Source: an uncultured Thermosynechococcus sp. (lineage in GTDB: Bacteria; Cyanobacteriota; Cyanobacteriia; Thermosynechococcales; Thermosynechococcaceae). Taken from it: a stretch of DNA of 52,836 nt. The stretch is from contig NZ_CALJEM010000021.1 in NCBI RefSeq assembly GCF_938074695.1, positions 1 to 52,836 of the forward strand, written 5' to 3'. This document shows, piece by piece, positions 1,894-39,022 of this stretch (its first letter is position 1; every line of letters starts with the position of its first letter). Position numbers and translations under genes: made by a program. The notes beneath the pieces were generated by a model, which was not told where the DNA came from, did no database searches, and saw nothing but the letters and a program-made list of their open reading frames with translations.

Positions 1894-3233
1894 ATGTCTC
1901 AATTATCGCGTCGTCATTTTTTAATGACTGCCACTGCTACCGCCATGGGGGCGATCGCCCTCAAGGGATGTGCTCCCGCAGAAACTCCCCAAGGACAACA
2001 GCAGGGAGGGGGGACTACCACTACGAGTGCAGTGGAAACGGACACGATTAAATTAGGTTTTATGCCCATTGTGGAATCAGCCCCCTGATTATTGCCAAAG
2101 AAAAAGGCTTCTTTGCCAAGCATGGTCTCACCAATGCTGAAGTCTCCAAGCAGGCCAACTGGGCCAGTGGTCGGGACAATGTGGTGATTGGCTCCGCTGC
2201 CGGCGGGATTGATGGTGGTCAGTGGCAGATGCCCATGCCCTACTTGATCAGTGAAGGCATTATCACCCTCAACAATCAAAAAGTGCCAATGTACGTTTTG
2301 GCACAGTTAAATACCCAAGGGAATGGAATTGCCATCTCCGGCGCCAACAAGGGCAAGGGCTTACACCTCAAAATCGCTGATCCCGACTACATCAAAGCCT
2401 TTGCTGCCAATAACGGCCGCAAGTTCAAAGCCGCCTATACCTTTCCCCATGCCAACCAAGACCTGTGGATTCGCTACTGGTTTGCGGCCAATGGTATTAA
2501 CCCTGATTCCGACATTGAACTCTTAGCCGTTCCTCCCGCTGAAACGGTTGCCGGTATGCGCAATGGTACGATGGATGCCTTCAGTACCGGTGATCCTTGG
2601 CCCTTTCGTATTGTCAGTGATGATATTGGCTTTATGGCTACCCTAACGGCACAGATGTGGCCCTACCACCCCGAAGAGTATCTAGCCGTGCGGGCTGACT
2701 GGGTCGATAAACACCCCAACGCCACCAAAGCCCTCTTGAAAGCGGTGATGGAAGCTCAGCAGTGGTGCGATGACAAGGCCAACCGCTCTGAACTCATTCA
2801 AATTTGTAGCCGCCGCGAGTATTTCAACGTTCCCGGCAACATCCTCACTCCTCCCTACGAAGGCACCTACACCATGGGGGATGGTCAACCAAATTTCAAC
2901 GACTTTAACATAGGACCCCTGTACTGGCGCGATCCCAATGGCAACAGTATTTCCTACCCCTACAAGAGTCACGACCTCTGGTTCTTGACTGAAAACCTGC
3001 GCTGGGGCTTCAACGCCGATAAACTCAAGGACTTTGACAATATCAAGCAAATGATTGGTCGGGTCAACCGCAGCGATCTCTGGCAAGAGGCCGCCAAAGA
3101 GTTAGGGGTGCCAGCAGCTGAAATTCCCACCACCGACTCACGGGGTGTTGAGACCTTCTTTGATGGCATCAAGTTTGATCCCGATAACCCTCAAGCCTAT
3201 CTGGACAGCCTCAAAATCAAGGTCAAGTCCTAG
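1894..3233 (+). pseudogene. cmpA: cmpA, bicarbonate-binding lipoprotein, with a one-base frameshift
   Basis: Substrate-binding subunit of the BCT1 bicarbonate ABC transporter, outside the plasma membrane. The protein starts with a twin-arginine-like SRRHFLM and a lipobox ending LKGC. Frame 1 runs to a TGA at 2086 just after VESAP. The homologous continuation [10 protein letters not shown] is in another frame from 2085, and the rest runs intact to 3233. One extra C in the CCCCC run at 2081-2085 would restore a full protein of about 446 residues. CmpA rather than NrtA is indicated by [24 protein letters not shown] and GDPWP, and by the absence of nirA or narB. The rest of the operon looks intact, which argues for a sequencing error, a very recent mutation, or slippage at CCC-UGA. 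Two-piece translation seems unlikely because the signal peptide is on the short piece. Confidence 0.9.
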
Positions 3234-34288: not shown

Positions 34289-34597
34289 ATGAGTCGTACC
34301 CCCCTAATCGAACGCCTAGCGGCTGAAATTGGCCGTGATATTTACATTGATGTGGCCAAATGGCATCTCTACCTTGGGGATGCAAAACTGGCAACCCCCC
34401 TTGCTGAGGCCTTTTTGCCCCTCTTGGAACAGGGGGAGATCAATGCGGCGCAGGTCACCAGCATCTTGCAGGAGGTTTCAGTTCCCCTTGGCGGGGGTCA
34501 GCACTCCCTTTCCCTCGATCGCCTGATTCCCAAGGCCAACCAAGCGTTGCTGGTAGAACTGCTCAACCGCTTCCGCCAAGAGGAGCTGGAGTTCTAG
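34289..34597 (+). CDS. DUF3181-family protein
   Basis: Soluble protein of 102 residues from the cyanobacterial/plastid family DUF3181, function unknown. Typical stretches are LAAEIGRDIYIDVAKWHLYL and LAEAFLPLLEQGEINAAQVT plus VPLGGGQHSLSLDRLIP. ATG 34289 has AGG 8 bases before it; an alternative GTG at 34280 adds three residues. The stop overlaps that of the cyclase gene by 4 bp, tail to tail. Confidence 0.85.
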   Translation: MSRTPLIERLAAEIGRDIYIDVAKWHLYLGDAKLATPLAEAFLPLLEQGEINAAQVTSILQEVSVPLGGGQHSLSLDRLIPKANQALLVELLNRFRQEELEF

Positions 34598-35658
34598 TGC
34601 ACCGTGCCCCACTCCTGTTGGGCATTGACCGGGGGCAAAAGATAAATGCGCAGAAGATGACCTGCGATCGCCAGTTGATGGGGAAGCTTCCGCAAGGCCT
34701 TCAGCCACTGCGGTTGATTGCTGGCTTCTATGGCTTGGAGTTTTTCGTTAATCTCAACACAGCGTTGCAGACGCGGATAAAACTCAGGGTGGTCAACATT
34801 GAGCACCACAGAGAAGGTGCGCGCCGCTGTTTCATTCGTTTTGGCAATCACTTCGCGATCAAATTCCGTGGCATTGAGGCCAAGGGCTTCATAGAATTTG
34901 GCACGCTCATGCACCGTCAGGGTATGGGTGGCAAACACCGCTAGCAGGAAGAAACGCATCCAGAGTTTAGCGCCCCAGCCTTGAATCAATTGCGGCTGGG
35001 AGTGGATTAGAGCCTTAAAAATATCGCCGTGGCGATTCTCATCCTGGCACCAACTTTCAAAGTAATTAAACAGAGGATAGAAGGAATGTTCAGGGTGCTT
35101 TTCAAGGTGACGGTAGATAATGATGTAGCGCCAGTAACCGATTTTCTCCGATAGATAGACAGTGTAGAGCACCCAGGGCAGGGGGAAAAAGGTGTACTTG
35201 CGCGCCTTGGACAGATAGCCCAAGTCCATGGCATGGCCAAAATCCATCATTGCCTTGTTGAGAAACCCTGCGTGCCGCGCCTCATCCCGTGCCATGAGGT
35301 GAAAGATTTCCGCCAAAAGGGGGTTGCGATTCTTGAGCTTGCGCGAGAGTTCCTTAAAGAGCAAAAACCCTGAAAACTCAGAGACACAGGAACGCTCAAG
35401 ATAGTCAATAAAGGCTTTGCGGGTCTCTGCATCCAAGGTGTCCCATGTGCCTTTGAAGGAGTCGTCGCGGACAAAGTGATGGCGGTTGTAGTCTGCCCGC
35501 ATTTCCGCCAACATTGCTTCGAGTTGTTCCCGCTGGCGACTGAGGTCAAGTTTTGCTGCCTGTTCAAAATCTGTTGTGTAAAAGCGGGGCGTTAAAAGGT
35601 TTTCACGAATGGTTTTAACAGTCTGGCCTGAATCAGGGTGGGGGGCGATCGCCACCAT
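34594..35658 (-). CDS. acsF: AcsF-type Mg-protoporphyrin IX monomethyl ester cyclase (probable ChlAII)
   Basis: Oxygen-dependent diiron enzyme that makes the fifth ring of chlorophyll. It has 354 residues. Diiron ligands are visible in SCVSEFSGFLLFKELSR, ARDEARHAGFLN and WCQDENRHGDIFKA, with the family start LLTPRFYTTDFEQA. Cyanobacteria usually carry two copies: a main one and a low-oxygen one next to heme oxygenase 2 and hemN. The location here, divergent from exactly those genes, suggests the low-oxygen copy (ChlAII); sequence alone cannot prove this. The promoter at 35707-35734 overlaps a perfect dyad. Confidence 0.92.
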   Translation of the reverse strand: MVAIAPHPDSGQTVKTIRENLLTPRFYTTDFEQAAKLDLSRQREQLEAMLAEMRADYNRHHFVRDDSFKGTWDTLDAETRKAFIDYLERSCVSEFSGFLLFKELSRKLKNRNPLLAEIFHLMARDEARHAGFLNKAMMDFGHAMDLGYLSKARKYTFFPLPWVLYTVYLSEKIGYWRYIIIYRHLEKHPEHSFYPLFNYFESWCQDENRHGDIFKALIHSQPQLIQGWGAKLWMRFFLLAVFATHTLTVHERAKFYEALGLNATEFDREVIAKTNETAARTFSVVLNVDHPEFYPRLQRCVEINEKLQAIEASNQPQWLKALRKLPHQLAIAGHLLRIYLLPPVNAQQEWGTVH

Positions 35659-35706: not shown

Positions 35707-35734
35707 ACTATACTATATCCCTTAGAATGGTCAA
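35707..35734 (-). promoter_or_regulatory. promoter of the acsF-type gene
   Basis: On the minus strand TTGACC (35734-35729) and TATAGT (35712-35707) are 16 bases apart, close to the vegetative consensus. The start codon is 48 bases further on. The -35 box shares bases with the dyad at 35730-35747. Confidence 0.6.
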
Positions 35735-35747
35735 GAATTGTCTTGAC
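35730..35747. promoter_or_regulatory. perfect 7-bp dyad, candidate operator (ChlR-like)
   Basis: GTCAAGA-ATTG-TCTTGAC: two exact 7-bp arms with a 4-bp centre, 18 bp in all. This is the size and symmetry of a MarR-family site. In other cyanobacteria the MarR-type, oxygen-sensing activator ChlR controls chlAII-ho2-hemN. That this is its site is inference. No chlR gene is in the window. Confidence 0.55.
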
Positions 35748-35793
35748 GTTTTTGCAAAAGTAAGCAGTTTTGTAATGTTTTTTGAAGTTTCGC

Positions 35794-35822
35794 TTGACAG
35801 CCATATGGTCAAAAAGTAATAC
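35794..35822 (+). promoter_or_regulatory. promoter of the heme oxygenase-hemN-desaturase unit
   Basis: TTGACA (35794-35799) and TAATAC (35817-35822) are separated by exactly 17 bases. The -35 box and the GTCAA at 35808-35812 also make a TTGAC-N9-GTCAA pair, so the same half-site motif as the neighbouring dyad recurs, in everted order. A 120-base leader precedes the ATG. Confidence 0.6.
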
Positions 35823-35941: not shown

Positions 35942-36673
35942 ATGACTGTGCTCTCCCTTGCGCTGCGTGAAGGAACTGCCGAGGCTCACACCTTGGCCGA
36001 ACGCACTGCCTTCATGAAGTGTTTTGTCCAGGGATTCATTACTCCCAGCCTCTTTCGCCAGTTTCTGGCCAATCTCTATTTCGTTTACACTGCGCTTGAA
36101 TCGGCTTTGGCCAATACCAAGGGGGCTTCCCTGCGGGCAATGTACTTCCCTGAACTCAACCGCAGCGGTCAATTGGCTGAAGATTTGGCCTTCTACTATG
36201 GCGACAATTGGCGGGATCAGATTACGCCCCTCACGGCTACGCGGGTTTACCTCAGTCGCATTCATGATGTGGCTCAGAATGATCCTCTGCTGCTCATTGC
36301 CCATTCCTACACCCGCTATATGGGGGATCTCTCTGGGGGACAGGCTCTCGGTAAAATTGTTCGCTCCCACTTGGCGCTGCCCGAAGGTAAAGGCACGGCC
36401 TTTTACGAGTTTCCAGCGCTGCCGACCCCAGAGGACAAGAAAGCCTTTAAGCAGCGGTATCGAGAAACCTTAGATGGCCTTGGCCTCGATGAAGGGGCGA
36501 TCGCCCGCATTGTCAAGGAAGCCAACTTTGCTTTTGCCCTCAACTGCAATCTCATGCACGCCCTTGAGCCTGAGTTAAAAGCCAGCGTTGGCGATCGGGT
36601 GTGGCAGTCGGTTGTCATCGAGAACCAGCCCAGTCGGCGAGAGCACCGCCGTCCTGAAGCTGTTGCCGTCTAA
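35942..36673 (+). CDS. heme oxygenase (probable low-oxygen form HO2)
   Basis: Opens heme to biliverdin IX-alpha, the first step to phycobilins. It has 243 residues. The proximal histidine is H16 in LREGTAEAHTLAERTAFMK; distal-helix features AHSYTRYMGDLSGGQALGK are intact. ATG 35942 is chosen because GGAG lies upstream and because the conserved start MTVLSLALREGT fits the family; a longer in-frame GTG start (35834) would begin before the leader ends. It is the first gene of a unit with hemN and the desaturase, opposite acsF. Confidence 0.93.
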   Translation: MTVLSLALREGTAEAHTLAERTAFMKCFVQGFITPSLFRQFLANLYFVYTALESALANTKGASLRAMYFPELNRSGQLAEDLAFYYGDNWRDQITPLTATRVYLSRIHDVAQNDPLLLIAHSYTRYMGDLSGGQALGKIVRSHLALPEGKGTAFYEFPALPTPEDKKAFKQRYRETLDGLGLDEGAIARIVKEANFAFALNCNLMHALEPELKASVGDRVWQSVVIENQPSRREHRRPEAVAV

Positions 36674-36710: not shown

Positions 36711-38093
36711 ATGAGTGTGGTTCAGCCAATTCAATTTGAGGGGGCACTGCTGCAAAAATACGATCGCCCCCTGCCCCGCTATACGAGTTACCCTACAGCA
36801 GCCGAATTTACTGCCGATTTTGATCGCCATTGTTTCCAGCGGGAACTGCTGCGGAGCAACGCAGCGCACTTGCCCCTCTCCTTGTACGTGCATATTCCCT
36901 TTTGCCAGAGTGCCTGCTATTTTTGCGGCTGCAACGTGATTATCACCCAAAGCCAAACCATTGCCAAAACCTACTTGGACGCTTTGGCTGAGGAAATTGC
37001 CCTAGTTGCTGCACGGCTGGATCGCACTCGTCCAGTAATTCAAATGCACTGGGGCGGCGGTACCCCTAACTACCTCACTATTGACCAGGTGGAATCCCTG
37101 TGGCGCACCCTCACCCACCACTTTGAATTTGCCAAGGACGCCGAAATTTCAATTGAGGTGAATCCCCGCTATGTCAACCGCGAGTACCTCTTTCGTCTGC
37201 GGGAGCTGGGTTTCAATCGCATCAGCTTTGGCCTGCAGGACTTTGACCCTCAGGTGCAGCTGGCGGTAAATCGCATCCAGCCTGAAGCCTGGCTGTTCCA
37301 GGTAATGGAGTGGATTCGCGCTGCTGAGTTTACAAGTGTCAACATTGACCTCATTTATGGCTTGCCCTACCAAACCGTTCAATCCTTTGAAACCACCATT
37401 GCCAAGACGCTCCGCCTAAATCCAGATCGCATTGCTGTCTTTAACTTTGCCTATCTGCCCAATCTCAAACCAATTCAAAAGCGTATTGATCCAGCGACGC
37501 TACCCGATGGCTCGACCAAGTTGGCCATTTTGCAGCGGGTGATTGAACTGCTGACGAGCCACGGCTATCGGTACATTGGCATGGATCACTTTGCTAAGCC
37601 CACGGATGAGCTGGCGATCGCCCAAGAGGCGGGGACGCTCAAGCGCAACTTTCAGGGCTATACAACGCTGCCCCCGGCCGACCTCATTGGCTTTGGTCTG
37701 ACCTCGATTAGCATGTTGCAGGAGGCCTATGCTCAAAATCAAAAACATTTGGCCACCTACTTCAGTGAGATTGCAGCAGGTCAACTGGCCACAGAGCGCG
37801 GTATTCAACTGCGGGATGAGGATTTGCTGCGCCGCGCCATTATCATGGAATTGATGTGCCAGTTTAGCCTCGACAAGGGGGCGATCGCCCGCCAGTTTAA
37901 TCTCGATTTTGATACCCACTTTGCCCCAGAGTTAGCCGCACTGGAGGAATTGGCCGCCGATGGACTCCTCAAGTTGGGGCGCGATCGCCTAGAGGTCACC
38001 CCCGTGGGACGGCTCCTCATCCGCAATATTGCTGCCGCCTTTGATACCTACCTGCAACAAAAATCTGGTAGGACATTTTCCAGGGCCATTTAG
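36711..38093 (+). CDS. hemN: HemN, oxygen-independent coproporphyrinogen III oxidase
   Basis: Radical-SAM enzyme that makes protoporphyrinogen IX without O2. It has 460 residues, normal for the family. The iron-sulfur cysteines are C65, C69, C72 and C74 in HIPFCQSACYFCGCN (the CX3CX2CXC pattern of genuine HemN), then MHWGGGTPNYLTIDQ and INIDLIYGLPYQT-like motifs. ATG 36711 is used; a TTG at 36699 is closer to the GAGGAG site and would add four residues. It starts 37 bp after the heme oxygenase gene. Needed under low oxygen, when the aerobic HemF stalls. Confidence 0.95.
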   Translation: MSVVQPIQFEGALLQKYDRPLPRYTSYPTAAEFTADFDRHCFQRELLRSNAAHLPLSLYVHIPFCQSACYFCGCNVIITQSQTIAKTYLDALAEEIALVAARLDRTRPVIQMHWGGGTPNYLTIDQVESLWRTLTHHFEFAKDAEISIEVNPRYVNREYLFRLRELGFNRISFGLQDFDPQVQLAVNRIQPEAWLFQVMEWIRAAEFTSVNIDLIYGLPYQTVQSFETTIAKTLRLNPDRIAVFNFAYLPNLKPIQKRIDPATLPDGSTKLAILQRVIELLTSHGYRYIGMDHFAKPTDELAIAQEAGTLKRNFQGYTTLPPADLIGFGLTSISMLQEAYAQNQKHLATYFSEIAAGQLATERGIQLRDEDLLRRAIIMELMCQFSLDKGAIARQFNLDFDTHFAPELAALEELAADGLLKLGRDRLEVTPVGRLLIRNIAAAFDTYLQQKSGRTFSRAI

Positions 38094-38182
38094 TCCCAGA
38101 TTGGCTTTAGGATTCTCTTGTGGTGCAAGTTCTCGCCATCTAAACTCGCGTCTAAACTTGTAAACGGTGTTGAGGAGTGCCT

Positions 38183-39022
38183 ATGTCATCATCCTTGGAA
38201 TTGCAACCCCAGACCACCCGCTTCAATTGGGGGTTTGTCCTCTTTTTGGGAGTTATTCATCTTTTAGCAGGAGTTGCCTTTTTCTTTTTCTCTTGGTCTG
38301 CGCTGGCAGTCACCCTCTTTCTCCACTGGCTCTTTGGGAGTATCGGCATCTGCTTGGGATACCATCGCCTCTTGAGCCACCGCAGTTTCCAAGTCCCGCA
38401 GTGGCTAGAGTATGGCATTGCCCTTTTGGGTGCTTTAGCCATGCAGGGAGGTCCTATTTTTTGGGTCGCTGGCCACCGCTTGCACCATGCCCATACGGAG
38501 GATGAAGTGAAAGACCCCTACTCAGCGCGGCGGGGTTTTTGGTGGAGCCACATGCTCTGGCTTGTCTATCCCCAGCCTCAATTCTTTAATGCAGAGGAGT
38601 ATGCCCGCTTTGCGCCGGACTTGACGCGGCAGGCTTTCTACCGCTGGCTTGATCGCTACTTCTTGCTACTGCAAGTGCCCCTTGCGTTGCTGCTCTATAG
38701 CCTCGGCGGTTGGTCTTGGCTACTGTGGGGAGTGTTTGTGCGGGCGGTCTTCCTGTGGCATAGCACTTGGCTAATCAACTCTGCGACTCACAAGTGGGGC
38801 TACCGCCGTTTCGACACAGCGGACAACTCCCGTAACCTTTGGTGGGCGGCGCTCCTCACCTACGGCGAAGGTTGGCACAACAACCACCATGCCTATCCCC
38901 ACGTGGCCAAGGCTGGCTGGTATTGGTGGGAAGTGGATCCCACATGGTGGGTAATTCGCATCCTCCAGGGACTGGGTCTGGCTTCCAAGGTACAGTTGCC
39001 TCCGCCCACAGCGTTGTCCTAA
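38183..39022 (+). CDS. acyl-CoA/acyl-lipid delta-9-type desaturase (DesF-like)
   Basis: Membrane diiron desaturase that puts a double bond into fatty acyl chains, using O2. It has 279 residues and four or so membrane helices. The three histidine boxes are HRLLSH (61-66), HRLHH (98-102) and HNNHH (232-236). It follows hemN by 89 bp with its own ribosome site (GAGGAG). A desaturase next to ho2 and hemN recalls the desF gene of the low-oxygen regulon in Synechococcus 7002, as I remember it; DesC is the alternative name for such enzymes. Which lipid it uses cannot be read here. Confidence 0.88.
   Translation: MSSSLELQPQTTRFNWGFVLFLGVIHLLAGVAFFFFSWSALAVTLFLHWLFGSIGICLGYHRLLSHRSFQVPQWLEYGIALLGALAMQGGPIFWVAGHRLHHAHTEDEVKDPYSARRGFWWSHMLWLVYPQPQFFNAEEYARFAPDLTRQAFYRWLDRYFLLLQVPLALLLYSLGGWSWLLWGVFVRAVFLWHSTWLINSATHKWGYRRFDTADNSRNLWWAALLTYGEGWHNNHHAYPHVAKAGWYWWEVDPTWWVIRILQGLGLASKVQLPPPTALS

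Follow-up and report, generated by a model that had tools for sequence, protein, structure and literature searches.

The chlAII locus and its outward promoters

The window, the whole 52,836-nucleotide stretch of Thermosynechococcus DNA that was analysed, carries a gene for Mg-protoporphyrin monomethyl ester oxidative cyclase on the minus strand (acsF; 34594..35658; 354 aa) that diverges from a heme oxygenase gene on the plus strand (35942..36673), with 283 bp between the start codons at 35658 and 35942 when the sequence is re-read. The cyclase is of the chlAII type and matches the NCBIfam AcsF profile TIGR02029 at 518.9 bits against a cut-off of 192.5, and the same draft genome, which is 91% complete, has a second AcsF copy on contig C70. 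The heme oxygenase (Pfam PF01126, 231 bits) is followed on the plus strand by hemN, encoding an oxygen-independent coproporphyrinogen III oxidase (36711..38093; NCBIfam TIGR00538, 668.8 bits), and by a fatty acid desaturase gene in the position of desF (38177..39022; Pfam PF00487, 82 bits), homologues of which lie after hemN in part of the comparison loci that were fetched. These profile matches agree with the gene identities given in the earlier note, acsF divergent from heme oxygenase. All of chlAII, ho2, hemN and desF are present at the locus, HO2 and DesF being assigned by cluster position only, and this is the low-oxygen gene set known from ChlR-controlled clusters. The ChlR clusters of Synechocystis 6803 and Synechococcus 7002 (review PMC4500134) are made up of these same genes, desaturase included, and their role of making pigment when oxygen is low is probably shared by the window; unlike them, the window has a divergent gene order, two promoters and other cis elements, and no ChlR gene was found in its clade.

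Two named Thermosynechococcus loci (L088 and L089) have the same gene arrangement, and a chlAII at least 80% identical to that of the window was found in ten genomes of the genus (the source genome, G001, G002 and G004-G010). In G003 the chlAII is not this gene (64% identity) and has a chlR of its own beside it; at this locus (L037) the cluster was possibly replaced through gene transfer.

The intergenic region contains a pair of outward sigma-70-type promoters, both at the places where the earlier note had read them. On the minus strand, the acsF promoter consists of a -35 box TTGACC (35729..35734), five bases of which are common to the dyad discussed below, and a -10 box TATAGT (35707..35712) at a spacing of 16, and both boxes are invariant in nine genus genomes and retained in G010. 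On the plus strand, the HO2 promoter consists of a -35 box TTGACA (35794..35799), which lies within the right arm of a central element, and a -10 box TAATAC (35817..35822) at a spacing of 17; a promoter scan lists the same -35 box but with a spacer of 18 and AATACT. As three promoter-like sites, two of them these promoters, were found in the 321 bp scanned versus 0.4 expected, the pair exceeds chance. Both strands thus carry -35 and -10 hexamers at a spacing of 16-18, with boxes kept in nine genomes. The block from -10 box to -10 box has a mean pairwise identity of 0.908, with 87 of its 116 columns invariant, compared with 0.786 at acsF third codon positions, and it includes a partly conserved box between the promoters (TACTTTTGCAAAA in the acsF sense; 35750..35762).

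A palindrome of other cyanobacteria and the central element

Among 80 named loci, 42 have a heme oxygenase divergent from chlAII, two of them from Thermosynechococcus, and motif learning on the other 40 yielded a 22-bp palindrome, TTAATARCTNTANAGYTATTAA. Nine of these 40 loci have hemF in between and were left out of a cross-validation on the remaining 31, in which each half served in turn for training and the other for testing. This revealed a site in 30 of the 31 held-out gaps at a shuffle P of 0.01 or less, with scores of 13.2 to 27.0, the single failing gap (L156) scoring 3.3; the 31 gaps include related species and so are not 31 independent cases, and they span 147 to 1536 bp, the long ones of which may hold another gene. 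Nodosilinea nodulosa PCC 7104 (L106) is an example of a strain carrying the full site. The ten Thermosynechococcus gaps hold weak matches, with scores of 1.4 to 11.9 (P 0 to 0.27), and in seven of the ten the model scores highest at TTTTTGACCATATGGCTGTCAA or a sequence very similar to it. In the open-access literature we found no paper recognisable as treating the TTAATARCTNTANAGYTATTAA palindrome or ArsR control of chlAII.

When 58 genomes were searched with the pattern ATMRCTNTANAGYKAT, 24 sites were found in 18 genomes versus 8 in 6 for a reversed control. Six of the sites belong to chlAII or HO2 loci (two in G013 and one each in G033, G034, G043 and G050); three are in Thermosynechococcus (G000, G002 and G009), none of them at the chlAII-HO2 locus. 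Eighteen loci around these 24 sites (L228-L245) were examined, L241 containing an additional site. The palindrome core was observed 48 bp before a psbA start in L242 (1501-1516; scanned), approximately 340 bp upstream of psbA in L229 (1501-1516; by eye), and, with a DUF302 gene on its other side, upstream of an SQR-like gene in the related genomes of L236 (from 1501; by eye) and L237 (from 1501; scanned). A weakly palindrome-like sequence, TATAAC[CT]ATATAATCA, is conserved 5' of the presumed psbA2 in L184, L185 and L186; in the palindrome scan that included these loci, from which rows L286 and L288 were left out for having no frame, it reached P values of 0.01 in L184 and 0.02 in L186 and was not the best-scoring place in L185. 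The string ACCATAT is common to the central element of the window and two of these three loci.

Scans and alignments suggest that the central element of the window (35794..35815; TTTTTGACCATATGGCTGTCAA in the acsF sense) is a decayed counterpart of this palindromic operator. The earlier note had observed that the plus promoter carries the half-site of the dyad in everted order, and TTGAC-N9-GTCAA does start at 35794. Unguided MAFFT alignment placed the window element in register with TTAATCGTTGTATAGCTATCAA of L090, TTAATCTCTATGTAGCTATGAA of L091 and TTAATGCGTATATAATTGTCAA of G010. For the window with G010, and likewise for G010 with L090, the local alignment outscored all 200 shuffles; that of G010 with L091 gave a P of 0.045, and through G010 the window element maps exactly onto the L090 and L091 palindromes. 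Direct alignment of the window to L090, L091, L092, L100 and L144 was not significant (P 0.28-0.81). The alignment of the window with L099 also beat 200 of 200 shuffles, yet the L099 palindrome lies 8-9 bases further on, and the L100 palindrome is off by about as much in the MAFFT alignment. Judging by the palindrome scores and the alignments through G010, the everted half-site is probably a remnant of a shared operator, and its right arm contains the HO2 -35 box. We infer from the spread of the palindrome, rather than from a tree, that it is the older state. The Thermosynechococcus element is a poor match to it and may no longer bind anything. The proposal that one factor controls both directions is plausible, as in other cyanobacteria the homologous gap carries the palindrome between chlAII and HO2.

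The dyad and rival explanations

The perfect 7+7 dyad GTCAAGA-ATTG-TCTTGAC (35730..35747), noted previously as sharing TTGAC with the minus -35 box, is present as described. As a perfect 7+7 dyad with a loop of 0-10 occurs in 191 of 1000 dinucleotide shuffles of the gap (19.1%), it is within chance range; with a loop of exactly 4 the frequency is 31 in 1000 (3.1%), and the whole window holds 26 perfect 7+7 dyads versus approximately 35 expected. Its conservation among relatives, proposed as a check in the earlier note, is borne out for the outer 5+5 bases, GTCAA-N8-TTGAC, which are invariant in nine of nine genomes, and fails for the perfect 7+7 symmetry, which is found in only two of them (G000 and G009). 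G010, a more distant genome, retains the acsF -35 box but has lost the left arm. A search for other GTCAAGA-N4-TCTTGAC sites returned the dyad as the sole 0-mismatch match in its own genome, and the shorter GTCAA-N8-TTGAC shows no excess in the 11 genomes (2-6 per genome versus 7-21 for the reversed control). A regulon built on this site was rejected, as it is not a repeated genomic site. When 17 loci were fetched for other GTCAA-N8-TTGAC sites, an open frame of at least 100 codons covered the site in 14, the exceptions being L071, L076 and L080; the test is loose, as a frame of at least 100 codons also spans the acsF dyad site in L073. The site in L071 (1501-1518, in G002) lies approximately 70 bp 5' of a substrate-binding protein gene that looks like urtA, and the same 18-mer is present in G004 and is not among the matches listed for the other nine genus genomes. 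No dyad site was found within 400 bp upstream of the presumed psbA2, the copy assigned from its tandem place, in G002, G004 and G007, and a dyad common to the psbA2 promoter was rejected. The psbA2 gene is reported to be induced microaerobically.

The dyad would be a true operator if a dimeric regulator other than ChlR read GTCAA-N8-TTGAC over the chlAII -35 box and blocked RNA polymerase there, which we consider possible though rather unlikely. The constraint on the site has the pattern expected of a dimer site, with the arms GTCAAG and TTGAC fixed across nine genomes (11 of 11 columns), a variable middle (one of seven columns invariant, six of seven bases varying), no indels and a constant position at -89 from the acsF start codon in all but G010, and the variability of the dyad middle is matched by only 0.9% of 7-column windows across the promoter block. 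The right arm must stay, as it is the -35 box, and the left arm alone is weak proof, as all-invariant 6-column stretches like it make up 21.6% of windows in the block. Against such an operator also stand the loss of the left arm in G010, the absence of an excess of sites across the genus, the open frames over most of the fetched sites, loosely tested as these were, and the absence of a site 5' of the microaerobically induced psbA2. In the preferred reading the dyad is the chlAII -35 box together with a conserved upstream box, the perfect symmetry in two genomes most likely being incidental; the promoter is constrained, and the outer dyad symmetry perhaps is so within one clade. A reading as an RNA hairpin acting as a plus-strand terminator, which draws on a scan that lists the dyad, then GTTTTTGCAA, as terminator-like, is highly improbable: the HO2 promoter is downstream of the dyad, and on the other side the closest gene is acsF, which points away on the minus strand; the outer stem has only five pairs in six of nine genomes, and Rfam returned nothing at gathering thresholds. 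A terminator or RNA element was thus rejected on position, stem shortening and the Rfam result. The SufR operator consensus in cyanobacteria is CAAC-N6-GTTG, and sites of this form can be read in the sufR-sufB gap of the same genome. SufR operators have the CAA-N8-TTG spacing in common with the dyad, but the fourth base is unlike theirs, with CAAG-N6-CTTG in the window and CAAG-N6-ATTG in six of nine genomes, and SufR was rejected as the dyad binder on this base.

The earlier note had linked the dyad to ChlR by inference, and this link is not supported. Binding of the dyad by ChlR or another HxlR protein, with activation of both genes at low oxygen, would suit the target genes, which are those of ChlR in Synechocystis 6803 and Synechococcus 7002, but it is scarcely credible here, as the HxlR family has no credible member in 10 of the 11 genus genomes. 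The Pfam HxlR profile had zero matches in the source genome, G002 and G004-G010, six of which (G002, G004-G007 and G010) are single-contig assemblies; G001 has a marginal match (6.8e-4) in a SufR-sized 224-aa frame, and the sole real match (3.6e-33) is in G003, beside its different chlAII. ChlR as the dyad binder was rejected on these grounds. The Pfam MarR models were set aside as the wrong family for ChlR, their matches including SufR and a Crp-like protein as judged by reading the sequences. The review PMC4500134 notes that T. elongatus BP-1 possesses the low-oxygen enzymes but lacks chlR, and that it probably evolved a different way of controlling them. The dyad is also unlike the published ChlR motif, reported as TTMCC-N3/4-GGWAA, which was not found with up to one mismatch in the 400 bp 5' of the window acsF and was found once, with one mismatch, in the relative G007; the test is weak, as the chlR-adjacent loci L033, L035 and L037 also lack the motif. 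The literature background used here comes from PMC4500134, PMC9709244, PMC13421787, PMC5295598 and PMC5061849, and a search of open-access literature found no study of how this cluster is expressed in Thermosynechococcus. An improbable, though less remote, alternative is that both promoters are now constitutive, the old regulator having been lost and its loss offset by consensus -35 boxes, with no factor acting. The strong consensus at both promoters, the decayed palindrome and the absence of ChlR fit this, but the higher conservation of the block between the -10 boxes than of acsF third positions exceeds what two promoters alone would need.

Candidate regulators and a model for the locus

The DNA fetched around chlAII contains an ArsR-family gene related to that of L023, sometimes at a distance of 2-4 kb, at 11 loci in ten genomes (L020, L022, L105 (one genome), L023, L099, L113, L120, L126, L129, L138 and L143), eight of them among the 80 named loci and three among 30 loci from a chlAII homologue search. 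In L099 the ArsR gene directly follows chlAII and an SQR-like gene comes next; in L305, which is the same locus, chlAII (178-1251), the ArsR-family gene (1492-1848) and the SQR-like gene (2177-3220) lie side by side, the last on the minus strand and matching the NCBIfam type III SQR model at 196 bits against a cut-off of 525. This trio ties low-oxygen chlorophyll synthesis to sulfide oxidation. According to PMC5061849, the ArsR-type regulators of Geitlerinema PCC 9228 adjoin sulfide:quinone reductase and their proposed target is sqr, whereas the L099 ArsR sits between chlAII and the SQR-like gene and the targets proposed here are chlAII, ho2-hemN and a psbA.

Palindrome-like sites were found in the gene's own promoter for 11 of 39 members of this ArsR group at P ≤ 0.01 and 20 of 39 at P ≤ 0.05, leaving 19 without, and these counts overstate independence, as the rows are related and include near-identical members of the genus. 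The corresponding numbers at P 0.01 and 0.05 were 1 and 6 of 60 for HxlR promoters, 1 and 4 of 18 for ZiaR-like promoters and 0 and 2 of 8 for other ArsR promoters, and neither of two SufR promoters had a site. Members of the group are present in ten of the ten other genus genomes, that of G007 at C1:718042-718353; none was found in the source draft, in which contigs C40 and C42 end on either side of its place. The Thermosynechococcus ArsR groups with that of L099 in a tree with moderate support (95/79), and it scores 44 bits against the NCBIfam BigR model, far below the cut-off of 155. Near the C-terminus, 23 of 37 distinct sequences of the group match a C-x3-C pattern, a cysteine pair that may act as a sensor, and nine more read C-x2-A-C. 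G059-G061 have the palindrome, yet their only ArsR genes diverge to roughly the same degree (50-54%) as the Thermosynechococcus ones.

In the other cyanobacteria the palindrome may be bound by ChlR or a relative, as 14 of the 15 palindrome loci searched, all but L099, are in genomes with a clear HxlR gene. We favour this less than ArsR, as three palindrome carriers are without a clear HxlR (G033 has no match, and G050 and G065, the genome of L099, have SufR-sized marginal matches only) and 59 of 60 HxlR promoters are without the palindrome at P 0.01. It is conceivable, though doubtful, that in many cyanobacteria a ChlR-independent, self-repressing repressor of the ArsR/SmtB family reads TTAATARCTNTANAGYTATTAA and that Thermosynechococcus keeps the repressor and a remodelled operator; its targets would be the low-oxygen gene set of chlAII, ho2-hemN, a psbA and sulfide:quinone reductase. 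Such a repressor would be the "other mechanism" left open in work on ChlR for species without chlR. ArsR control of the window itself is putative, a reasoned guess.

Our preferred reading, held tentatively and at somewhat less than even confidence, is that the locus may be a ChlR-independent divergent promoter pair, serving chlAII on one side and ho2, hemN and the desaturase gene on the other, that was rewired from a palindromic operator. An ancestral TTAATARCTNTANAGYTATTAA operator would have decayed in Thermosynechococcus, and the shared switch site would have been rebuilt into ordinary promoters, with -35 boxes starting with TTGAC at both and that of HO2 lying in the central element's right arm. 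An ArsR/SmtB-family repressor, of which the genus has members, would still bind the central element and block two promoters from there, that of HO2 directly and that of chlAII from a position approximately 50 bp upstream of it, limiting both in air. It would release the DNA when oxygen falls or sulfide rises, and RNA polymerase with a sigma-70-type factor would then use both promoters. As for the dyad, it may be bound by nothing, or by a further dimeric factor that recognises GTCAA-N8-TTGAC.

If this reading is correct, it would be a clear case of a shared operator rebuilt as ordinary -35 boxes. One switch would then govern the synthesis of chlorophyll and bilins, the variants of photosystem II and the oxidation of sulfide, and the comparison gives a testable question, with a named DNA site and a named candidate regulator family in a culturable thermophile.
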